Source: Deltaproteobacteria bacterium
GTDB lineage: Bacteria > Desulfobacterota > SM23-61
Length of the DNA: 64,000 nucleotides
Direction: 5' to 3'
Assembly (NCBI GenBank): GCA_016875165.1
Contig: VGSF01000009.1
Span: 16,068-80,067, forward strand
In this document: piece after piece, positions 26,178 to 49,945 of the stretch
Position numbering within the stretch: position 1 is the first letter of the stretch
Layout: every line of letters begins with the position of its first letter
Program-made: the position numbers and the translations under genes
The notes under the pieces: generated by a model
Database searches by the model: none
What the model was told of the DNA's origin: nothing
The model's input: the letters and a program-made list of their open reading frames with translations, nothing else

Positions 26178-26312
26178 TTTCCACTCCTAATAAACCAGCA
26201 AAAAGCCCTCAAAATTTTCTTGACAAAACTTTTTTCTTTATCCATATTGCCACAAGAGATTCTTTGCTCCATTGTCCCCCAAGATCGACGATTTATAAAA
26301 ACAGTATCAGTT

Positions 26313-26504
26313 GAGCCTCTTGCAAAAGTATTTTTTTGTGGTTCGACAAGCTTGTCCTGAGCGAACCGTTCACCCTTCGAGAACCTCAGGGCGAACGGTG
26401 AGTCGAAGGGCTCACCACGAACGGAAAAACTAAATAAATTCAACCTAAGCCCGTTCACCCTGAGCCTGTCGAAGGGTAAATTACGGACTTTTGCAAGAGG
26501 CTCA
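26313..26504. repeat. Palindromic element with GAGCCTCTTGCAAAAG / CTTTTGCAAGAGGCTC termini
   Basis: Terminal inverted repeats; internal GAACGGTTCACCCTTCG... hairpins; second copy at 30433-30563 in opposite internal orientation. Confidence 0.75.
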
Positions 26505-34232: not shown

Positions 34233-34516
34233 AAATTCTCCTTCCCTTTAGAAAAACTTTTGGTTAATGGGTAAATCATTTTTTCCAAAGTAAATTCCTC
34301 CTGGCCATATTAGGCTTGAATATATCACCCCCTTTCCTCTTTAATTTTTTAAACCCTTTTACCACACCACTGGAGCCATGTCAACAGAAATAACCTGCGA
34401 ATCCCAAATTCGGCGTAGCCAGAACCAGAGGGTAACGATTGGAAATCAGAAATCCTGATATTGAAATCCAAAACAAGGCCAAAACACAAATCTCAAAAAC
34501 CCCAAACAGCCAAAGT

Positions 34517-34674
34517 TGATGATCTCGTAAAAAGTCGTAATTTGTGCTCTTTCGTCATTCCGGCCCCGATTTTCATCGGGATAAACTCCAGCCGGAATCC
34601 AGTCTTTTCAATATGTTCCGACATCTCTGGACTCCGGTTTTCACCGGAGTGACGACTTTTTACGAAGTCATCAA
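34517..34674. repeat. Palindromic element, subtype A (tandem with next)
   Basis: TGATGATCTCGTAAAAAGTCG...CGACTTTTTACGAAGTCATCA. Confidence 0.8.
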
Positions 34675-34677
34675 AGT

Positions 34678-34832
34678 TGATGGATTCGTAAAAAGTCCTG
34701 TTCCTGTCATTGCGAGGAGTTCCGCATTGGCGGGACGGCGAAGCAATCTTGTCTTTTCGGGCACTTTTAAAAACGAGATTGCTTCGCTTCCGCTCGCAAT
34801 GACCCTTTCGCGACTTTTTACGAGATCATCAA
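34678..34832. repeat. Palindromic element, subtype B (tandem with previous)
   Basis: TGATGGATTCGTAAAAAGTCC...CGACTTTTTACGAGATCATCA with GCGAGG..CGCTCGCAATGACC core. Confidence 0.8.
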
Positions 34833-38084: not shown

Positions 38085-38133
38085 TAATTGCATTTTAATA
38101 TTGCATACTATATATATCATATATCAATTTATA

Positions 38134-38162
38134 TTGACAACAGTATTATTCTGGAATATAAT
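38134..38162 (+). promoter_or_regulatory. Consensus sigma70-type promoter TTGACA-17-TATAAT upstream of XRE-helicase gene
   Basis: TTGACA 38134-38139, 17-nt spacer, TATAAT 38157-38162; ATG of the helicase at 38169. Confidence 0.8.
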
Positions 38163-38168
38163 AAGGCC

Positions 38169-41100
38169 ATGAATAGCGAAAAGATAAAAAGTATACGCTT
38201 AAAGCTCGGTTATTCACAGCAAGAATTCGCCGCCGCTCTTGGGGTATCCTTTGCAACAGTCAATCGTTGGGAAAATGGGAAGGCTAAACCGCAAAAGGAC
38301 CGCATTGGGAGGATGCAAGCACTTTTAAAACAAAATGAGCAAGAAAAAATGCAGCCCGAACCAGCCTTCAAGCAACTTCCACGATTAAACTTCGAAGGCG
38401 ACCCGGAAGCGATAAAGCTCGTGATAGATGCATACCGACTACAGAATGGGCATCTTTTTAATAAGGCTTTTGGCCTTGAGCTTTCTCGGGTTGTTCCCCT
38501 TCCTCATCAGAGAATTGCGGTCTATGAATATCTCCTTTCGCAAAACCCTCTCCGCTTTCTTCTCGCGGACGATGCCGGTGCTGGAAAGACCATTATGGCC
38601 GGTTTGTATATCCGTGAGATGATCAATCGCGGCCGGATATCACGAGTAGGTATTTTCTGCCCCGCAGGCTTAACCTGGAATTGGCGGAGAGAATTGAAGC
38701 ATTTTTTCGATCTCGATTTCCAGGTGCTCCGAAGCTCTGATTTTCAAAAGGGGGATCCATTATTCTCTTCTGACCATGCAGGCTTTATTATCAGTGTGGA
38801 TACGGCATCAACGGATTTTGTGAAAGAGCGATTAATGTCGCCCACAATGCCAGGGTTTGATCTCATTGTTTTCGATGAGGCACATAAACTGGCCTGGGGG
38901 GATCCCAAACGAAGAGACAGTCAGACCCGCCGCTACCGCCTGGCCGAAGCCCTTGGCCCTCGCACCAACCATATGCTTCTGCTGACGGCCACCCCGCACA
39001 TGGGCAAGCCTTTCCCATACTTTGCTCTTTGGCGCCTGCTGGACCCCAATGTATTCACCACTCTTGATGCCCTTCCATCCCTGGAAGCAGAAAAGCGCTC
39101 GAAATATTTTTTGCGTCGTTTAAAAGAGGAGATGGTGGATTATAAAGGACAACCCATCTACATGCCTCGTCTTTGTCAAACGATATCTTTTGAATTGAGC
39201 CCAGGGGAACAAAATTTTTATGAGGAAGCTTCAGCCTATTTGCGCTGGAGCTACGAAACCAGCATGACCCACAATAAAAATGCAGCGGCCATGGTCGTTG
39301 CAGTTTTGCAGCGTCGTCTCGCCAGTTCCACTTACGCCATGCTGGAGTCGCTCAAGCGGATACGGTCACGAATCATAGAGAACGATCTTCCTTCATCTCC
39401 GGCCGATTCCCTTCCTCTTGAAAAAATCATAGAACATTTTGATAGTAGCACTGCGGATGAAGGCGAACCTTCGGAGGACGGCCGGGAAAGCGACGAAAGT
39501 TTTGAAGATCAAGCACTCAATTTGAAAAAGCCGGCCACAAACCAGCAACGCGAGAAGGAATTGGAATCCTTGGAGCGGATCATTGAGCTTGGAGAAAATG
39601 TTCGCGCCACGCTCCAGGAAACGAAGTTTATCAAGTTGAGGGAGCTGATAGAATCAGCCGAATTTCAGAACGAAAAAATATTAATCTTCACCGAGCACCG
39701 GGACACCCTAAATTATTTGCGCCAGAGGTTTGAAGCACTGGGGTATACCGGCCAGATTGCTTCGATCCATGGAGGCATGGATGTTGAAGAGCGGGAACAA
39801 GAGCGGTTATTCTTTATGCCCCCCGAACTTCGCCCATTGGAGAGCGGCAAGAAAATGGATGACCGCAGTGCCCGCATCATGCTCGCCACAGATGCCGCAG
39901 GGGAAGGTATAAACCTGCAATTCGCCTGGCTCATGGTGAACTTCGATATCCCCTGGAACCCGGCCCGACTGGAACAAAGGATGGGGCGGCTGCACCGTTT
40001 CGGCCAGAAACATAGCGAAGTGAGAATCTTTAACCTGGTCGCTGAAAAGACGCGGGAAGGAGATGTGCTGGCCACCCTTCTTTCCAAGCTGGATGAAGCG
40101 AGAAAAGAATTGTGCAGCGACAAAGTTTTTGATGTAATCGGCCAGCAGCTCCAGGAAGTTTCGCTGCGGGATCTGTTGCGCGAAGCGTTATTTGAAACGC
40201 CCCCCTATACCGCCCAAAAAAAACTGGAATCCATCTTTGCCACCCAAAAATTGCGGGCTACGATTGAGGAGCAGAGAAAAACGGCATCAACGTATGGGGA
40301 TGTCGGCCGCCGCCTGGGGGAGCTCAACAATGAGGTCGATGCCGAAAGGTTTAATTGCCTGCTTCCGGCGTTTATTCAGAATTTTCTGGAAAAAGCGGCT
40401 CCCCGGTTGGGAATTCAATTGGAGGGAGACTTAAGCGAGACGGCCCGCTTTTCCGTGATGGGAAATGATGGGAATTGGCTGCGCCTGCTGGCTGATCGTT
40501 TTCCGGAGGGCCTGCCCGAATGCCTGACTGTCCGTCGAGAACCGGATTTACCCGATGTGAATACCGGTCAGTGCGCCTTTTTAAGGCCCGGCGAATTAAT
40601 TTTTGACGCCTTTTGTCAGGAGACGATCCGCCGATTTCAGGAAGATGTAACAAAAGGGGCGGTATTCTGTGACCCTGCGGCAGAAAAGCCGTATTACGCC
40701 GCGGTTTATCTCTGCCAGATTGGAGAGCCCTCCCGGGTTATAAAATCGGGAGCGAACGGCGGTATTTATAAACTTTTGGACCGGAAATTAATCGGCTTAA
40801 AATGGGATGAAACAGGGGATTTAAACCTCTGCCCCCCCAATCATTTGCTGGCGCTCCTGGCGGCTCCACGTTCTCTGATTTGGAAAGCAGGGAATCTCTT
40901 GCTCAACCCGGAAGATCAAGCAGTTAAGGCGGATGTTTATGCTCGCATGGTGGCCGAATCCAGCTATTTGCAGCAGATGCGGACAGCTCTTCAAGCAGAA
41001 ACGCAATCCCGCATGGACGATATCATGCGCGGTCTTGATTTTCGCAGCGGCGAATTGGCCGAGAAGAGAAGCGAGCTATCCCGACGGGTACGGGTGGGTG

Positions 41101-41657
41101 AGGCGACTGGGGCTGAAGAGCTTGAAAAGGTGAAAAAAGAGCAGGCTCAGCTTGAGGAGGAGAAAGCGGAAATCCTTTTATATGAGCAGAGAAGGTCGGA
41201 TCTTCTTGAAATCATCAAAATGGAGCGGCTTGCTATTGCCTTGATCATTCCGGATCCGAGCCCCGTAGCCCAGGAGACTTACGACAAAAATATCGAAGCA
41301 ATGGCCATGCGCATCGCCCGTAATTTTGAAGTGGATCGCTATAAAGCCCGAGTATTTGATGTTTCCTCGCCCCACCTTGCCAGAGGATATGATCTGGAGA
41401 GTCACCGGGCAAACGGCGAAAAGGTGGTGATTGAAGTAAAGGGCCGGGCCGGGCGCGGGCCGGTTCAGCTAACCGAGAATGAATGGCCAACAGCCGTAAA
41501 TGTGCGGGACCGCTATTGGCTTTATGTGGCCGTCGATTGCGCTACAAATCCCAGACTTTATCGTGTACAGGACCCGGCCTTTAAATTGGCGGTGAAAAGC
41601 CGGCAGAGTTTCACGATTAATATTGGAGAGGTGATTCGGGAGGCAGAACAGGATTAA
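38169..41657 (+). CDS. SNF2-family DEAH helicase with N-terminal XRE HTH and C-terminal DUF3883
   Basis: [99 protein letters not shown]; C-term [34 protein letters not shown]. Confidence 0.9.
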   Translation: [1162 protein letters not shown]

Positions 41658-41701
41658 AGAAAAAAGATTAAGGCGCAAGGCAAAAGGATAAAGGAGAAAA
41701 A

Positions 41702-42931
41702 ATGGGGAAGCAAACAAAGCTGGTTAAAGGAGGAGCTTTTCCTGCAATCCTGCCGGAAATTCGGTCCATGATCGAACAGTCCCGTGATCATGTAGCCTAT
41801 ACGGCCAACCTGTTTCTGGTCAATCTTTATTGGAATATCGGGCGAATTATCACCCAGGATATTCAGGCGAACGAAAGAAGGGCCGAGTATGGGGAGCAGC
41901 TCATAGAAGAATTGGCTAAGGAATTGGGGAAGGAATATGGATCAGGTTACTCAGCGAAGAATCTGTGGGATATGAAAAGATTCTTTGGCGCCTTTGAGAT
42001 TCTCCAGACAGTGTCTGGAGAATTCAGGGACGAGGTAATTCTCCGACCTCTAAGCGGGAAGGCCTTAGGATCTGGAAATGTGCAGCCACCGGCTGCAGAA
42101 TCACGTGTGCAGCGAATTCGTCAGACAGCGTCTAATCAATTTGAGAAAGACAAGATTCTCCAGACACTGTCTGGAGAATCCTCTGAGCGTCTTCGAATCG
42201 ACTTTGATAAGCATTTCCGCATTGGCTGGTCCCATTATCGCCTTCTTCTTGGTCAAAGTGATCCCCTCAAACGCAAATTTTATTTTGAACAATCCGCCTC
42301 CCAGCGATGGTCTGTCCGCGAACTCCACCGCCAGATTGATGGCGCCCTTTTCGAACGAGTAGCCCTCTCCCGCGATACCCGCAAGCTTGCCAGTCTCGAA
42401 AGACGAAAAAGTCCGAAAGAGGTAGTCCGATACGAGGACATTTTCAAGGATCCCTACCTTCTTGACTTCCTCGGCTTGAAAGGCGCTTATTCGGAGAAAG
42501 ATCTCGAAGCTGCGATTATCCATAACCTCGAACAGTTCCTGACAGAGCTGGGCAGTGATTTCTGCTTCATTGGCCGCCAGTACGCGATGCGGATTGATGA
42601 CGTGGATTATTTTCTTGATCTTCTCTTTTTCCACCGTGGATTAAGTTGTTTAGTGGCCATTGACCTGAAACTGGGTACCTTCACCGCAGCCGACAAGGGC
42701 CAGATGGACCTTTATCTTGCCTGGCTGAAAGAGCACGAATGGCGCGAGGGCGAAAATGAACCTATCGGTTTAGTTTTATGCAGCTCCAAAAAACGGCAGC
42801 ATGTCGAGTTGCTGCTACGCCATGGACCGCATAAAATGCAGGTCTCTGAATATTTGATGAAGTTGCCAGACAAGAGACTGCTCGAAGAAAGACTGCGAAT
42901 TTACAGTAGGCTGTTGAGAGGTGAGAATTAA
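41702..42931 (+). CDS. DUF1016 / YhcG-family PDDEXK nuclease
   Basis: IRSMIEQSRDHVAYTANLFLVNLYWNIGRIITQDI..RAEYGEQLIEELAKEL; WSVRELHRQIDGALFERVALS; FLDLLFFHRGLSCLVAIDLKLG. Confidence 0.88.
   Translation: MGKQTKLVKGGAFPAILPEIRSMIEQSRDHVAYTANLFLVNLYWNIGRIITQDIQANERRAEYGEQLIEELAKELGKEYGSGYSAKNLWDMKRFFGAFEILQTVSGEFRDEVILRPLSGKALGSGNVQPPAAESRVQRIRQTASNQFEKDKILQTLSGESSERLRIDFDKHFRIGWSHYRLLLGQSDPLKRKFYFEQSASQRWSVRELHRQIDGALFERVALSRDTRKLASLERRKSPKEVVRYEDIFKDPYLLDFLGLKGAYSEKDLEAAIIHNLEQFLTELGSDFCFIGRQYAMRIDDVDYFLDLLFFHRGLSCLVAIDLKLGTFTAADKGQMDLYLAWLKEHEWREGENEPIGLVLCSSKKRQHVELLLRHGPHKMQVSEYLMKLPDKRLLEERLRIYSRLLRGEN
41999..42193. repeat. Five tandem in-frame 39-bp units (13 aa each) carrying palindromes, inside DUF1016 gene
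   Basis: Units ILQTVSGEFRDEV / ILRPLSGKALGSG / NVQPPAAESRVQR / IRQTASNQFEKDK / ILQTLSGESSERL; ATTCTCCAGACA[G/C]TGTCTGGAGAAT in units 1 and 5. Confidence 0.8.
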
Positions 42932-43433
42932 GACGCGGAGACACGGGGACGCGGAGACGCGGAGACGCGGAGATTTTGATATGGAAAATATCAGATCATT
43001 TAAGGAACTGAAGGTTTGGAATAAGGCAATGGACCTTGCTATGGAAATATTTGAAATCACCAAAAAGTTTCCACCAGAAGAAAGGTATTCACTGACGGAT
43101 CAAATTCGGCGTTCTTCGAGATCCGTGCCGGCAAATATTGCCGAAGCATGGCGTAAAAGACGGTATCCGGCGGCATTTGTAAGCAAGCTTAATGATGCAG
43201 AGGGCGAGTCTGCCGAAACGCAAACGCATATTGAAATAGCAAGGCGCTGTGGGTATATTGAACCGGAAGCAGCTTTGAGGGTCGATAATTCATGCGAAGA
43301 GACCATGGCAATGCTCGTTTCAATGATTTCGAACCCCCATCAATGGACCATACGCCGTTCAACCAAGGTAAATGGAACGAAATCATGACTAAACCGTTCA
43401 ACGCGTCTCCATGTCTACGCGTCTCCGCGTCTT
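42930..43433. mobile_element. Putative S23 (four-helix-bundle) cassette bounded by imperfect inverted repeats
   Basis: AAGACGCGGAGACACGGGGACGCGGAGACGCG (from ~42930) vs reverse complement of 43401-43433 AAGACGCGGAGACGCGTAGACATGGAGACGCG: 27/32 matches by eye. Confidence 0.55.
42981..43388 (+). CDS. Four-helix bundle protein (S23/IVP family)
   Basis: SFKELKVWNKAMDLAMEIFEITKKFPPEERYSLTDQIRRSSRSVPANIAEAWRKRRYPAAFVSKLNDAEGESAETQTHIEIARRCGYI. Confidence 0.88.
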   Translation: MENIRSFKELKVWNKAMDLAMEIFEITKKFPPEERYSLTDQIRRSSRSVPANIAEAWRKRRYPAAFVSKLNDAEGESAETQTHIEIARRCGYIEPEAALRVDNSCEETMAMLVSMISNPHQWTIRRSTKVNGTKS

Positions 43434-46400
43434 CATCAGATTTCCCCCGTCTTATCGAAGTTGCCTTTCCTCTTAAGCAAGCCTCACTGGCCAGTGTGCA
43501 TGAGAAGAATGTGCGGCATGGGCATATTTCTACGCTTCATATTTGGCCGGCGAGGCGGCCTTTGGCGGCGTGCCGGGCGGCGCTTTTGGCCACATTGCTT
43601 CCCGATCCGGGCGATCCTGTTAAACGGCAAGCATTGCTGGAAAAGATCGGCGGAAGAGTCGTTTTCAAAAAGGTGAAAACCGTAAATGAAGAAGGCGCTA
43701 CCGTAACTGAAGAAAAGGAGACGCTCGAAAGGGGCGTGTTGGCTTGGGGGCAGGAGAATGATCCGGCAATGGATGAATTTCGCAAATTGATCCGGAAATA
43801 CTACGGCGATAAGGCGCCGAAGGTTCTGGATCCATTTGCCGGTGGGGGTGCAATTCCACTGGAGGCCATGCGCCTTGGCTGCGATGTTATCGCTTCTGAT
43901 ATCAACCCGGTGGCCTGGCTTATTTTAAAATGTACTCTTGATTACCCCCAACAATTTGCAGGCAAGAAATGGCCTTTGCCAGATTTTGTCAGGGACTGGC
44001 CGGATTTCATCGAGGATTTTCTGTCGGGAAAAATTAAGAAGCGAAGAGGAAAAAGGAAACCGCATTCTACCGATCCACAGCAACTCCAATTGCTTAACCT
44101 TCCCGACGCAGATTTGGCCTGGCATGTTCGGGCATGGGGACGATGGGTTCTGGAGAGAGCAAGGGCCGATCTCGCTGCCCGATATCCCATTATAGACGGC
44201 GAACCGACAGTGGCTTATCTCTGGGCGCGGACTGCCCGCGACAAAATTACGGCTGGGAAAATTCCTCTGCTCAAGACTTTTTGGCTATGCAAAAAGAAGG
44301 GGAAAAGAATTGCGCTGCTGCCGGTTCCCAAGGAGGATGGCTCCGTGGTCACTTTCAAATTATTACATGACGCCGATCTTACCAAGCCCCAGAAGATAAT
44401 TGATGATTATCCATTTCTGAAAAAGTGGGAAATCAAAGCCGATAAATTAAGCGACTTTCTGAACGCGGGCACGATGAACCGGGCTGGAGTGTGGAGCCCG
44501 TGCAGCGGCAGACCGAAATTGATTGCCTTAACCATGGATGATTTGCGACGCCAAGGACAGCAAGGACTTTTGGGAAACCAGATGACGGCGGTTGTCGTTG
44601 AAGCCACTGCGCCGGATGGCAAGAAAACCTTCAAACGTTATCGTTTGCCAATCGAAGAGGAAAGTAAGGCTGCGCAGGTTGAGATTGAAGACATGGAGGA
44701 TGTGTTTTCCGATATTCCCTTTGGAATACCTGACGAACCTTTGCCGCCGGTTGGCACGTTGGGTTTCCGTATTCCTCTCTACGGCTTTAAAAAATGGAGA
44801 GATATTTTTACATCGCGGCAGCTTTTGGCGTTGGGAACTTTTGTTAAACATACCCGCAAGGCCGTTCATGAAATCACGCGCAAAGATGAAAAGGTAGCCG
44901 AAGTTATTGGGGCTTATCTTTCGATGATTCTTGATCGGGTTGCAGACCGCGGCAGTACGATCTGTACATGGACTGTTGATTGGAACAAGATAAGAAATAC
45001 ATTTGGCCGATTTGCTCTTCCGATTACCTGGGATTTTGCCGAAAGCGTGACAACCGTTGAAACCTCCGGAGGGTATCCAGGGCAGATTGAGTTGGTTGCC
45101 CAATTCGTGGCGCATGCTTCAAAAATGGGCAATACAAACAGTCCCTTATTATCCGTCAAAAAGGAATCGGCCATTTCAATAGATGATAAAGGCATAGATT
45201 TTGTCGTTACTGATCCCCCTTACTATGATGCAATTCCTTATTCAGATTTAATGGATTTTTTCTACATCTGGCTTCGCCGAAACCAATACGGTTTCAGTCA
45301 GCAAATGGATGATGTTTTTCAATGGCCTTTGTCGCCGAAATGGAGTCATGAACAAAAGGATGGCGAGCTGATTGATGATGAATCAAGGTTCGGCGGTGAT
45401 AAAGGGGCTTCAAAGAAGTCATATGAAGATGGGATGGCCAGAGCTTTTCAAAAGATGTGCGAAGGGTTGAGTGCTGAGGGGCGAATTGTAATTGTTTTTG
45501 CCAATAAAGAGGTTGATGCTTGGGAAACCCTTATCGGGGCCTTGATCCGCGGTGGGGCGACCGTAACGGCAAGCTGGCCGATCCAAACCGAGATGCCCAA
45601 TCGCGTTCGCAATGTCGCAGCGGCAGCTCTTTCCACATCTGTCTGGATCGTCTGTCGCAAGCGGCTGAGCACAGCGGCGGCAGGATGGGATGCTAATGTC
45701 CTTGCCCGGATGAAGCAAATCCTTTTCGACCCCAGGGAAGTTCTTGGGGGTCGGAATATCCTGCAATATTATTTTGACCTTGGCATTCGGGGGCCGGACT
45801 TCATCTGGGCGGCATTAGGCCCGGCATTGGAGGCTTACAGCGCCCATCCTTTCGTGAAAAAGCAAGAGGGTGGGGTGATGACCGTCCCTGAATTTTTGAA
45901 AGAAGTTCGCAAGCTCGTGCTGCAATTTTCCCTTGGCGAACTTCCGGGTTTCCGGGATGTGCAGCGGGAAACACAAGGGCGGGGCGAGGCGATCGAACTT
46001 GATCCCGTAACGCAATATTATCTTTTGCACCGCGCCTATTTCGGCCTTGAACCTGCGCCTGCCGGGGCCTGCATCCTTTATGCGAACGCCTGCGGCAAGA
46101 ACGAGACGGAATTAAAATTAGTGTGGAACATCATCGAACAAGGCGGCAAATCCAAAAGGGGGCGGCCCACCAAGGAAGATTCCGAAATGGAAGAGGAGAG
46201 TGGGGGCGAAACAAAAGGCAACGAATACCGTCTTCTGGATTGGGCCGAACGGGTGAAAGATGACCGTCTTGGTGAAACCCGCGGGGGGAATCCTGCTCCT
46301 TTGATCGATCGTCTACATCGCCTGATGCTGCTTTTTAATCAAAACCGCACAGGTGAAGTTCAGCAGGCATTTGACGCCTGGGGGTTGTCCAGCGAACGAG

Positions 46401-46573
46401 CTTTCGGCCCTCTGCTCCAGGCAGTACGCGAGTTGGCCGTGCGGGATGAAAGGGATACGGAGAGGCGTCTGGTAGAAGCGCTGGCGACGCAGCTTAAAAT
46501 GAATCACCGAACAGTGATTGCGGAGAATGTGGTCCGGGATACGCCGCTTTTCGAATACGGGAAGGAAAAGTAA
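43385..46573 (+). CDS. DUF1156 (COG1743-type) adenine-specific DNA methyltransferase
   Basis: IEVAFPLKQASLASVHEKNVRHGHISTLHIWPARRPLAACRA; DPFAGGGAIPLEAMRLGCDVIASDINP; DPPYYDAIPYSDLMDFFYIWLRR. ATGA overlap with S23 stop. Confidence 0.9.
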   Translation: MTKPFNASPCLRVSASSSDFPRLIEVAFPLKQASLASVHEKNVRHGHISTLHIWPARRPLAACRAALLATLLPDPGDPVKRQALLEKIGGRVVFKKVKTVNEEGATVTEEKETLERGVLAWGQENDPAMDEFRKLIRKYYGDKAPKVLDPFAGGGAIPLEAMRLGCDVIASDINPVAWLILKCTLDYPQQFAGKKWPLPDFVRDWPDFIEDFLSGKIKKRRGKRKPHSTDPQQLQLLNLPDADLAWHVRAWGRWVLERARADLAARYPIIDGEPTVAYLWARTARDKITAGKIPLLKTFWLCKKKGKRIALLPVPKEDGSVVTFKLLHDADLTKPQKIIDDYPFLKKWEIKADKLSDFLNAGTMNRAGVWSPCSGRPKLIALTMDDLRRQGQQGLLGNQMTAVVVEATAPDGKKTFKRYRLPIEEESKAAQVEIEDMEDVFSDIPFGIPDEPLPPVGTLGFRIPLYGFKKWRDIFTSRQLLALGTFVKHTRKAVHEITRKDEKVAEVIGAYLSMILDRVADRGSTICTWTVDWNKIRNTFGRFALPITWDFAESVTTVETSGGYPGQIELVAQFVAHASKMGNTNSPLLSVKKESAISIDDKGIDFVVTDPPYYDAIPYSDLMDFFYIWLRRNQYGFSQQMDDVFQWPLSPKWSHEQKDGELIDDESRFGGDKGASKKSYEDGMARAFQKMCEGLSAEGRIVIVFANKEVDAWETLIGALIRGGATVTASWPIQTEMPNRVRNVAAAALSTSVWIVCRKRLSTAAAGWDANVLARMKQILFDPREVLGGRNILQYYFDLGIRGPDFIWAALGPALEAYSAHPFVKKQEGGVMTVPEFLKEVRKLVLQFSLGELPGFRDVQRETQGRGEAIELDPVTQYYLLHRAYFGLEPAPAGACILYANACGKNETELKLVWNIIEQGGKSKRGRPTKEDSEMEEESGGETKGNEYRLLDWAERVKDDRLGETRGGNPAPLIDRLHRLMLLFNQNRTGEVQQAFDAWGLSSERAFGPLLQAVRELAVRDERDTERRLVEALATQLKMNHRTVIAENVVRDTPLFEYGKEK

Positions 46574-46624
46574 TCTTCAAAAATCCCCCCCGCCCCCCTT
46601 TTCCAAGAGGGGAAAGGAGCTTTC

Positions 46625-49600
46625 ATGAGCAAAACATCTGTGATTCTGCCATGGAAAAAGACCTGCACCCTCAGGCCGGAAATCCGGGAACGAAAGCATA
46701 CTTCCAGCGATTTCGCCATTGACCTACAAAAGGTCATAAATGGAGGAACGGGGGCGAAACCTTATTATTGCGATCCGGAACAATTCTTTGCCACCACTTA
46801 CGCTACGCAGAATCTGAGGCAGCTATGCAAGGTTGTCCTCCGCAGGCTGGCTGACGCCGGGGGCGGGGAGCCTATCATAAATATCGCCCAAACCTTTGGC
46901 GGCGGCAAAACCCATACTTTGACTGCCCTGTATTACCTTACGACCCTGGAGGAAAAACTGCCCAAGAAGCAGACATCCGTGGGTATGATTCTGAACGATG
47001 CCCAGATCAAAAATCCACCTATAGCCAGAGTGGCCGCCGTTTCTTTCGACAAGGTGGATTGGAAGGTGGGCGGAGATGTGAAATCCCCCACAGGCGAGAT
47101 CCGCCAATTCCACATGCCCTGGAATTTGATTGCCTGGCAGCTCCTTGGCCAGAAAGGGCTGGATATTCTGCAGCGCGATGAGAGCCAGCCGGATTTTGAC
47201 ACTCCGCCGGCAGACACCCTATGGACAAAAATCCTGAATGCGGTCGAGATGTCGGGGCATGGGGCGTTGATCCTGATCGATGAATTCCTGATGTGGGCGC
47301 ATGATGCGGCTTCTCCTGATCCTGCCGGGGAACGAAAGGACCGGGGCCCGGTCTGGTATGACCGATTGAAGAACTTTTTCCAGAAGCTGGCCCAGGCTGT
47401 GGAGTCTTCCCGGCGTTCCTGTCTGGTCGTCTCCTTGCTGGCGACGGAACCGGCCAGAAACGATGAAGTCGGCAAAGCTATCCTCACGGCCTGCAACAGC
47501 GGCTTGAACCGGCAGGCATCCATTCAGTCTCCCGTGGAAAAGGACGACCTGGGCGAATTGCTCCGCCGCCGGCTCTTTGAAAAATATCCTGAGAGTGAAA
47601 CCGAGCGGCATAAGCATATCCTGGCCTTTTGGCATCGCTTGGAATCGGTAGATAGGATTCGAGCGAAGATGCCGGACGCGGAAGAGCGGCTGAAAAAATC
47701 CTATCCCTTCCACCCTGATCTTTTGGACCGGTTCTTTGGGAAATGGACAGACCTGGATCAGTTCCAGAGGACCCGAGGCGTTCTTCAGACCTTTGCCATG
47801 GCCTTGCGGGATGCCGAGACATGGGATGATTCCCCATTAATAGGCCCGCAGGTTTTTTTACCCGCACCTGCGCAGGATGGATTGAGCGAGGCCCTCCAAA
47901 AACTTGCGGAGAATGCCAAGGACTCGGACCGGGCGAGGAATCCCCAATGGCCGGCGAATTTAAAAACCGAGCTTCCCCGCGCTCTCGAAGCCCAAAAGGC
48001 GGAAGCAGCCACTTTAACCGGCCGGGAAATCGAAGCTGCTTGCATCGGTTCCTTTATTTATTCCCAGCCGATTGGGGAGCAAGCGGAATTGAGCGACCTG
48101 CGCTGGTTGTTAGGAGCGACCTGCGACATGCCCGCTGTGCTCAATAATGGTTTAAAAACCTGGGCAAAGGTATCCTGGTATCTGGAAGAATGCGAGGCCA
48201 CCGAGGCAGGAACCGACGTTCCCAAGTTCTGGCGGCTTGGGCCTAAGCCAAACCTTAACCAGTTGCACGATTCCTATAAAAGGCAGGCCATGAAACACGC
48301 CAGGAGCAAATTCGATGAATTGTCGGCAAAAAAATGCCCACCTTTATACGAGGGCATTGAAGAAGGGGTTATCGTGCACAAGCTGCCCCCTTCACCTGCG
48401 GATGTTGAAGATGACGGTCAATTCCGCTTAGTGGTTCTGGGAGCCGACTATGCGGGAAGCGCGGGCGATCCGCCGAATCCCAAGGCTGCAGAATTCTTGC
48501 GCACTCATTCATCTCCTGTGGACACACGCACCTATCAAAATATTTTGCTCATTGCAACGCCGAGCATTCCCGGTTTGCACCAGGCCGAGCAACATATTGC
48601 CGAATGGATGGCCTGGGGGGAAATCCGGGTATCCTCCCCATATAGGGAGATGGACTCTTTCCAACAGGCGACGGTAAAAAAACGGGAGAGAGAATCCCTT
48701 CAACAGGCCCAGACTTCCGTAAAGAATGCCTATGAACTTGTCATTTATCTGCACAAAGACGGGACAGCCCAAGCCCGAAAAATCACCATGGGGGCGCAAT
48801 CTCTTTTTGCGACCTTGCTTTTGGAAAAAGAATTGCGGTTGTTCAAGGAAAAAATCGATGCGCAAGCCATTATGCCTAATGGACTCTATCCTGTATGGCC
48901 TCCCGGTGCCCCTGATGTTGAAGTTCGCGACTTATATCAGGCCTTCGGCCAGGAACCTCGACTTCCTAAACTTCTGAGCCAGGGAACGGTTGTCAGGACT
49001 ATTGAAGATGCCGTGAAAAGGGGGGTCCTGGCTTTATGTTGTAAGAGACCCGACGGTTCCCAACAATGGTATTGGAAGAGCGATATCGATATGGCCGACT
49101 GGGTCAAACAGGGCGAAGCCTGGCTGCCGGAAAAAGCGACGCTGAATTCCTTGAGCCCCTTGGCCATATCTCCGGATTCGCTGCCGGGACTGTGGCCTGC
49201 TGAGGACACCGGTATAAAACTTGCCACTTTATGCTCATGGTTTGATGGCAAGCATACGTATGAAGAAAAATCGCATCCGGATTATCCCCCAGAAAAACGA
49301 CCTATTCCCAGGGTGGATTACAGGCAGGTGCATCAGGCGGTAAGTAAAGCGGTAGCCAATGGATCTATTTGGCTTGTTCTGGGGAATGACAGCGTGTTTC
49401 AAACCACACCCAGCGCAATTCAACTCGATCCCGATGCCGTATTGTTTCGTCCTCCTCAAGCGCTATCGGCAATTGATTTTCTTCCCAGCGCTTTACCTGG
49501 GGCCTGGTCGATTGAAGAGGAACCGAAAACAAAGGTGGAGATGCTCCATGCCAGATTAAAAGCCGCGCGCGGGAAACCATGGCCTGAAAAAATTTTCCTG

Positions 49601-49945
49601 GATGGCTTGAATGCAGCCATTGGCCAAGGATTTATCCACCGTATGTCCGGATCGGGGCCAATCGGTTCTTTAGCTCATGATGGAAAAGTTGGAGTTCAAA
49701 TTAAAAAGGAGCCCCTCACCCCACCGCCACCGGCGCCGGTATCCGGCCGTAAAATGACCAACACGGTCACCTTAAATGCCGCCGAAGTTCAAACGTTGGC
49801 GGAGGAAATCTCCCACATTACCAAGGCGTTAGCCGGCTGTGATCCTCAGGTTGAAGTCAGGATTAGTATTAAAGCGAAGCCCGGAAAAGATCTGGAGAAA
49901 GCCTCTGAAATACTTAAGAAGGTTAAACCAAAATGGGGTTTCTGA
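46625..49945 (+). CDS. DUF499 (COG1483-type) AAA+ ATPase
   Basis: IINIAQTFGGGKTHTLTALYYL; ALILIDEFLMWAHDAA; C-terminal KAKPGKDLEKASEILKKVKP. Confidence 0.88.
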   Translation: MSKTSVILPWKKTCTLRPEIRERKHTSSDFAIDLQKVINGGTGAKPYYCDPEQFFATTYATQNLRQLCKVVLRRLADAGGGEPIINIAQTFGGGKTHTLTALYYLTTLEEKLPKKQTSVGMILNDAQIKNPPIARVAAVSFDKVDWKVGGDVKSPTGEIRQFHMPWNLIAWQLLGQKGLDILQRDESQPDFDTPPADTLWTKILNAVEMSGHGALILIDEFLMWAHDAASPDPAGERKDRGPVWYDRLKNFFQKLAQAVESSRRSCLVVSLLATEPARNDEVGKAILTACNSGLNRQASIQSPVEKDDLGELLRRRLFEKYPESETERHKHILAFWHRLESVDRIRAKMPDAEERLKKSYPFHPDLLDRFFGKWTDLDQFQRTRGVLQTFAMALRDAETWDDSPLIGPQVFLPAPAQDGLSEALQKLAENAKDSDRARNPQWPANLKTELPRALEAQKAEAATLTGREIEAACIGSFIYSQPIGEQAELSDLRWLLGATCDMPAVLNNGLKTWAKVSWYLEECEATEAGTDVPKFWRLGPKPNLNQLHDSYKRQAMKHARSKFDELSAKKCPPLYEGIEEGVIVHKLPPSPADVEDDGQFRLVVLGADYAGSAGDPPNPKAAEFLRTHSSPVDTRTYQNILLIATPSIPGLHQAEQHIAEWMAWGEIRVSSPYREMDSFQQATVKKRERESLQQAQTSVKNAYELVIYLHKDGTAQARKITMGAQSLFATLLLEKELRLFKEKIDAQAIMPNGLYPVWPPGAPDVEVRDLYQAFGQEPRLPKLLSQGTVVRTIEDAVKRGVLALCCKRPDGSQQWYWKSDIDMADWVKQGEAWLPEKATLNSLSPLAISPDSLPGLWPAEDTGIKLATLCSWFDGKHTYEEKSHPDYPPEKRPIPRVDYRQVHQAVSKAVANGSIWLVLGNDSVFQTTPSAIQLDPDAVLFRPPQALSAIDFLPSALPGAWSIEEEPKTKVEMLHARLKAARGKPWPEKIFLDGLNAAIGQGFIHRMSGSGPIGSLAHDGKVGVQIKKEPLTPPPPAPVSGRKMTNTVTLNAAEVQTLAEEISHITKALAGCDPQVEVRISIKAKPGKDLEKASEILKKVKPKWGF

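Follow-up and report, generated by a model that had tools for sequence, protein, structure and literature searches.

S23 genes between inverted arrays of short tandem units: a probable small mobile cassette, hairpin-bounded and outside ribosomal RNA

To our knowledge no role has so far been described for the S23 proteins, although a structure has been available for some twenty years, and the heptamer arrays repeatedly described in bacteria have, as far as we know, never been given a cause. The 23S rRNA of Coxiella, Leptospira and Brucella contains intervening sequences (IVSs) in which an S23 ORF lies between complementary ends and which RNase III excises from the transcript, the cut ends not being rejoined (PMC4990558). 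The Xanthomonas S23 protein XCC0516 is a homopentamer that forms a pentameric toroid (PMC4990558), and the homology of S23 to Avd, a protein of diversity-generating retroelements (DGRs), has previously been noted (PMC10053308). Intergenic heptamer arrays are known from Xanthomonas (GGGAATC) and Nostoc; those of Xanthomonas include about 70 inverted pairs, have a mode of about four units, and were reported not to be associated in general with mobile elements (PMC4692102). Tandem 7-nt arrays of TAACTGA occur in Beggiatoaceae and others (PMC4679880), and the P6b stem-loop of the Nostoc trnL intron contains class I and class II 7-nt repeats that have been replaced as a block between lineages (PMC4476775). 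Term searches of PMC4692102 and PMC4679880 returned no mention of S23, and among open-access papers searched by the family's database terms, which four papers contain, none was seen that links S23 to repeats.

The S23 gene described here lies in a 64,000-nucleotide stretch of a deltaproteobacterial contig (the window), between a DUF1016 gene and hmaB and not in a 23S rRNA helix. The gene (42981..43388, plus strand) encodes a four-helix-bundle protein of 135 aa. It is preceded by a 5' arm (42931..42973, plus strand), recognized from the sequence, of about five tandem octamers (AGACGCGG AGACACGG GGACGCGG AGACGCGG AGACGCGG AGA), and followed by a 3' arm (43402..43436, plus strand), recognized from the sequence and the RNA fold, in which the octamer array is reverse-complemented. 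The unit of the 5' arm is GACGCGGA, and its reverse complement is found 3' of the S23 gene. Four octamer copies stand in register with a spacing of 8 within 42931-42973, and their complement occupies 43398-43437; taken as an inverted repeat, the arms (42927-42961 and 43402-43436) are 35 nt long with 83% complementarity. Array, S23 gene and complementary array together make up a unit of approximately 0.5 kb between the DUF1016 and DUF1156 genes. The inverted repeat that the earlier note had described from the DUF1016 stop codon to just inside the DUF1156 gene, enclosing S23, is confirmed at that place.

As RNA, 42926-43437 gives a fold of z = -5.6 in which one arm pairs with the other, so that the S23 ORF is enclosed by a stem of complementary borders, as in an IVS. 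The last octamer of the 5' arm provides a Shine-Dalgarno-like GGAG approximately 9 nt before the ATG of S23 at 42981, and the TGA stop (43386-43388) overlaps the next ATG as ATGA. No DNA- or RNA-moving enzyme is encoded within the cassette, and the 64-kb window holds no other paired arrays without S23 (orphans) beside the S23 locus. Perfect inverted repeats without tandem structure occur elsewhere in the window at 34516-34537 / 34811-34832 (22 nt) and 26312-26329 / 26487-26504 (18 nt), each with a few hundred bases between the arms. A perfect 26-nt inverted repeat (GATTCTCCAGACAGTGTCTGGAGAAT; 41998-42023 / 42155-42180, 131 nt apart) lies within the DUF1016 frame, as though a small palindromic element had been absorbed there in frame.

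PADLOC profiles identify the surrounding island (38088-49945) as an Hma defence system consisting of HmaA, HmaB and HmaC. The first is a SNF2 helicase (38088..41657, plus strand; PADLOC and orthologous island), the second a DUF1156 DNA methyltransferase (43385..46573, plus strand; ORF, orthologue alignment and PADLOC), and the third an ATPase (46625-49945; PADLOC). Between hmaA and hmaB sits the DUF1016/YhcG nuclease gene (41702..42931, plus strand; ORF and profile, PDC-S02 in PADLOC), the stop codon of which touches the 5' arm. In genome G145 (locus L180) the hmaB orthologue, with 84% identity in the part that aligns, comes directly after hmaA (stop TAA, G, then ATG) with no S23, no arms and no DUF1016 gene, and loci L181 and L182 have the same hmaA-hmaB order. 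Since hmaA is directly followed by hmaB in the orthologous islands, the window has both an extra DUF1016 gene and the S23 cassette. The comparison of orthologous islands proposed in the earlier note therefore yields an Hma island without S23 and its arms; a DUF1016-hmaB junction missing only S23 was not found in the orthologous Hma islands compared, because the DUF1016 gene is missing from the orthologous island too. The similarity of the window hmaB to its orthologues restarts at 43439. Its start codon at 43385, which overlaps the stop of S23, falls within the cassette, and the 3' arm is consequently read in frame as codons (NASPCLRVSAS). The hmaB paralogue in the window's own genome (L095) begins MTDIPRLIE and has no comparable insert.

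The window protein is a clear member of the S23 (23S_rRNA_IVP) family, matching PF05635 with E = 1.8e-36 (125 bits against a cut-off of 33.8) and TIGR02436 with 119 bits (cut-off 24). The structure predicted for the monomer has a pLDDT of 93.6, and this model, compared as a monomer and not as an assembly, agrees with two S23 proteins of solved structure, 2gsc (Z 20.4, rmsd 1.2) and 2rld (Z 17.7). Against Avd in the DGR ribonucleoprotein it reaches a Z of approximately 15, and against unrelated helical bundles at most 13. The protein scores 24.8 bits with the Avd equivalog profile, below the 80-bit cut-off, and none of the five genes inspected at the S23 locus encodes a reverse transcriptase. 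A profile search of phage records returned two weak S23 matches only.

The host genome contains 15 S23-profile matches, 11 of them above the cut-off. A search of this genome with GACGCGGAGACGCGG gave six matches, four at the window locus and two others with one mismatch each, and the GACGCGG unit is virtually restricted to the window locus. Nearly all other host S23 copies have a degenerate tandem array of their own on one side and the complement of that array on the other, with units such as TTGAATTT, ATCAGAG, GCAGAAG, GGTCAAT, AGACATT and AATTCCA. A search for further GACGCGG-flanked S23 genes, suggested in the earlier note, therefore fails for the sequence, as the unit occurs virtually only at the window locus despite 15 S23 matches, and succeeds for the architecture, as the other copies are bounded by inverted arrays of other units. 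One host S23 gene (L009) has GGTTTGTCT arrays on both sides that run in the same direction and are not inverted. Two loci (L013 and L014, ~1501-1710) have weak S23-like domains within longer ORFs (205 and 342 aa). Arrays of the GATCGGTC / GTCCGACC type flank these ORFs, in inverted orientation at L014, and the ORFs may represent a fused or derived offshoot of the S23 element.

How often S23 genes are flanked by such arms was determined in two sets of loci. The first contained 71 non-redundant S23 loci from the host genome and phylum relatives, picked by profile alone. The second contained 76 S23 loci from a genome-wide scan of many phyla, which used one query and is therefore biased to near relatives of the window protein (52-72% identity). 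For each locus the downstream flank was reverse-complemented and aligned to the 300-nt upstream flank, with swapped flank pairs, 120 control genes at the same loci and 1634 random placements as controls. In the first set the median score was 18.5 for own pairs compared with 9.0 for swapped pairs; 62 of the 71 loci exceeded the 95% level of the swaps, 46 exceeded the 99% level, and in 40 the locus's own partner ranked first of 71. The second set gave 19.3 against 9.5. A score of at least 16 was reached by 70.7% of the 147 S23 loci, compared with 2 of 120 control genes (1.7%) and 9 of 1634 random placements with the same geometry as the window locus (0.55%); the window locus itself scores 20, which together with its RNA fold sets its arms apart from chance. 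Approximately 29% of the 147 loci have no scoring arm pair.

Both arms are tandem, with a period of 7 in most of the phylum set, 8 in the S23 subfamily to which the window copy belongs, or 9. When the period of each arm reaches significance, it is common to the two in 37 of 41 and 43 of 43 cases in the two sets. The number of units per arm has a mode of 4-6 with a long tail up to 25. The 5' arm is G-rich on the S23 coding strand at 122 of 131 loci, so the polarity of the arms is fixed, and a purine-rich Shine-Dalgarno-like motif stands just before the S23 start in 53 of 85 arm-bearing loci.

The type of arm follows the lineage of the S23 gene. Placed on the S23 tree, the period changes 17 times, compared with 40.7 in shuffles (shuffle minimum 34); in the similarity-independent subset of the tree the effect is weak (12 changes compared with 15.1). 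Closely related S23 genes are scattered across many phyla. The unit sequence varies between loci, and tree neighbours from different phyla have units in common: the window S23 groups with copies from Verrucomicrobia and Planctomycetes that likewise carry GACGCGGA. The fraction of pairs with an arm similarity of at least 16 is 0% below 40% S23 identity and 87% above 80%. The arms are complementary to each other and not to the arms of unrelated copies. Complementarity between a copy's own arms is steady at 15-21 across all divergences, while that to the arm of the nearest relative drops to 8-10, which indicates that the two arms change together. The number of units in an array shifts fast between close relatives.

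Movement of the element can be followed in dispersed copies and at orthologous sites. Two copies in genome G017 (L024 and L049) lie at unrelated places with unrelated flanks and share 86% identity across 441 nt; the homology begins and stops at the outer arm edges, giving the sharp ends typical of an insertion sequence (IS) or MITE. Target-site duplications, which the earlier note proposed to look for, are visible neither at these two copies nor at the window cassette, for which there is no empty site clean at base resolution to compare. In the Nostoc group, a site between genes read by eye as polyamine-transporter genes (pot) carries a cassette in all eight genomes, in three types that cut across the relationships of the flanks. 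Between G297 and G298 the flanks at this site are 98.5% and 95.7% identical, the S23 genes are 75.9% identical, and both arms are switched. Homologous recombination of the ordinary kind could also account for a block replacement like this one at a single site.

Other sites in this group show intermediate states. At L239 the cassette is complete in four genomes; in G298 the two arms enclose a gutted S23, in G303 they enclose other sequence, and G306 and G307 have nothing, their element-free site consisting of a diverged 74-nt spacer. The L243 site carries an S23 cassette with octamer arms in two genomes and, in six, a short hairpin that has heptamer arms and no S23; as the arms changed along with S23, they arrived with the gene. 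At L238 S23 is present or absent within a resident hairpin, two relatives having the hairpin without S23, and direct array copies also flank it. None of the sites compared provides a fully clean one-step insertion at base resolution or a target duplication. We rejected L228 as a clean empty site, given that a Uma2-like gene (named by eye from sequence) is found there in relatives, and a pair of identical S23 copies from Calothrix plasmids as evidence that the cassette itself transposes, given that the gene order they share extends further and includes an integrase. S23 genes at L328/L329 (Calothrix brevissima plasmids) and L330/L331 lie within a conjugation region or beside an integrase of phage type, with conserved order, and these cyanobacterial plasmid genes are possibly domesticated copies.

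Judged by these comparisons, the element is present, absent, internally deleted or block-swapped at orthologous sites and is dispersed within a genome, and the existence of the cassette and its mobility are well supported. The phenomenon reaches far beyond the window locus, and S23 cassettes look like a widespread, largely undescribed kind of small mobile DNA. The proposal of small mobile S23 cassettes bounded by inverted repeats, made in the earlier note, is borne out in kind by the frequency of arms (71% compared with 1.7%), by dispersed copies that end at the arms, and by sites with and without the element. It has to be revised in that the ends are not a conventional shared terminal inverted repeat; they are tandem arrays of 7-9-nt units that differ from copy to copy. 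We favor, with a probability of about 0.62, the reading that the 0.5-kb unit in the window represents a widespread mobile cassette, IVS-like and hairpin-bounded, that lies outside rRNA and whose Avd-like S23 pentamer probably acts on its own arms.

It is also conceivable that the arrays are slippage repeats of the host and that S23 was inserted or kept at sites with inverted arrays, the arms being the landing site. The GTCATTT arrays of the Nostoc group (counted in G297, G298, G303 and G305-G308) fit this picture, with 165-540 pattern matches per genome compared with at most 6 for the reversed control; at 22 of 24 sampled loci the array is single-armed with no S23, and arrays therefore also exist on their own. 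The earlier note's alternative of general intergenic debris is excluded for the pairing of arms, but single-armed arrays of the same units do litter these genomes without S23. The octamer-armed cassette at L243, where six relatives have an S23-less heptamer hairpin, and the empty hairpin at L238 likewise fit a landing site. However, the arms at L243 changed together with S23, and an inverted partner was seen only at the two sampled GTCATTT loci that have S23. In addition, the unit type tracks the S23 lineage across phyla, dispersed copies comprise arms and gene as one block between unrelated flanks, and GACGCGG is virtually absent elsewhere in the window genome. On balance we consider pre-existing landing sites unlikely.

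Much the same evidence bears on two further explanations. Presence and absence, block replacement at orthologous sites, dispersed copies, and close relatives over many phyla are difficult to reconcile with an ordinary, vertically inherited gene whose hairpin would terminate transcription or switch translation of S23 and the adjoining genes, and locus-specific tandem units would be superfluous for a regulatory hairpin. This explanation, which we consider decidedly improbable, would account for the strength of the hairpin, for the Shine-Dalgarno-like motifs (within the arm in the window), for the several sites between gene ends, and for some plasmid S23 genes in conserved operons. Even less probable, in our estimation, is that inverted arrays arise around whichever gene is tolerated, through repeated local array expansion and repair by inversion, S23 being merely small and tolerated; the fast shifts in unit number agree with such a process, while the near absence of arms at other genes of the same loci (2 of 120), the fixed polarity and the link between unit type and S23 lineage do not.

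Under the favored reading of a mobile cassette, insertion would take place at gene ends or other tolerated spots. The transcript would fold into a long hairpin that makes the insertion tolerable and could be trimmed, as RNase III does with the insertions in rRNA. The Avd-related pentameric S23 ring probably recognizes its own array, perhaps with one unit per subunit, and would either aid the movement of an RNA or cDNA copy or maintain the hairpin. That the ring reads its own array is suggested by co-segregation and polarity, both seen in sequence comparisons. The broad unit counts (mode 4-6, tail to 25) weaken the idea of one unit per subunit, which is only suggestive. In the window, the cassette would have landed between the DUF1016 gene and the hmaB start of the Hma operon and supplied a new hmaB start codon, by which we propose that the operon remains translatable.

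A more far-reaching version is tentative and, we think, rather doubtful as a whole. It holds that S23 cassettes form a mobile-element class of their own across bacterial phyla, in which a pentameric Avd-like ring reads 7-9-nt units one per subunit, lineage and unit co-evolving. The ring would move the hairpin, possibly via RNA and a borrowed reverse transcriptase, and the cassettes would seed the heptamer arrays of cyanobacteria and Xanthomonas, the rRNA hairpins, and perhaps intron stems. The tie between S23 and arrays offers the S23 protein a candidate ligand, its own array, and offers heptamer arrays a candidate gene; it predicts that each S23 protein prefers its own arm.

Of the systems described to date, the IVSs of 23S rRNA are those that the cassette resembles in having an ORF of the same family, a unit of approximately 430-600 nt with complementary borders that form a stem, a sporadic occurrence, and a location where an extra hairpin is tolerated. 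By analogy the cassette may function like a 23S rRNA IVS. It differs in lying outside rRNA, in its tandem 7-9-nt arms with a locus-specific unit, and in having many dispersed copies per genome. With classical IS elements and MITEs it shares dispersed copies and, at L024/L049, sharp ends; unlike those elements, its copies have no terminal repeat sequence in common, and the units differ within one genome. Avd has the same fold and a pentameric ring, although the window protein misses the Avd equivalog cut-off and lacks a neighbouring reverse transcriptase within the five genes.

The described heptamer arrays resemble the cassette arms, being intergenic and made of tandem 7-nt units, the period of most arms in the phylum set. 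In contrast to those arrays, the inverted pairs found here accompany S23 genes, and the window's subfamily has a period of 8. Xanthomonas encodes the S23 protein XCC0516, a candidate link to its heptamer arrays. The P6b element of the Nostoc trnL intron also has complementary 7-nt repeats in a hairpin that is swapped as a block, although it is a stem-loop within an intron and not an S23 cassette, and a common origin with the S23 hairpins is only a lead. The comparison extends the rRNA intervening sequences to what would be a genome-wide family of small mobile hairpins.
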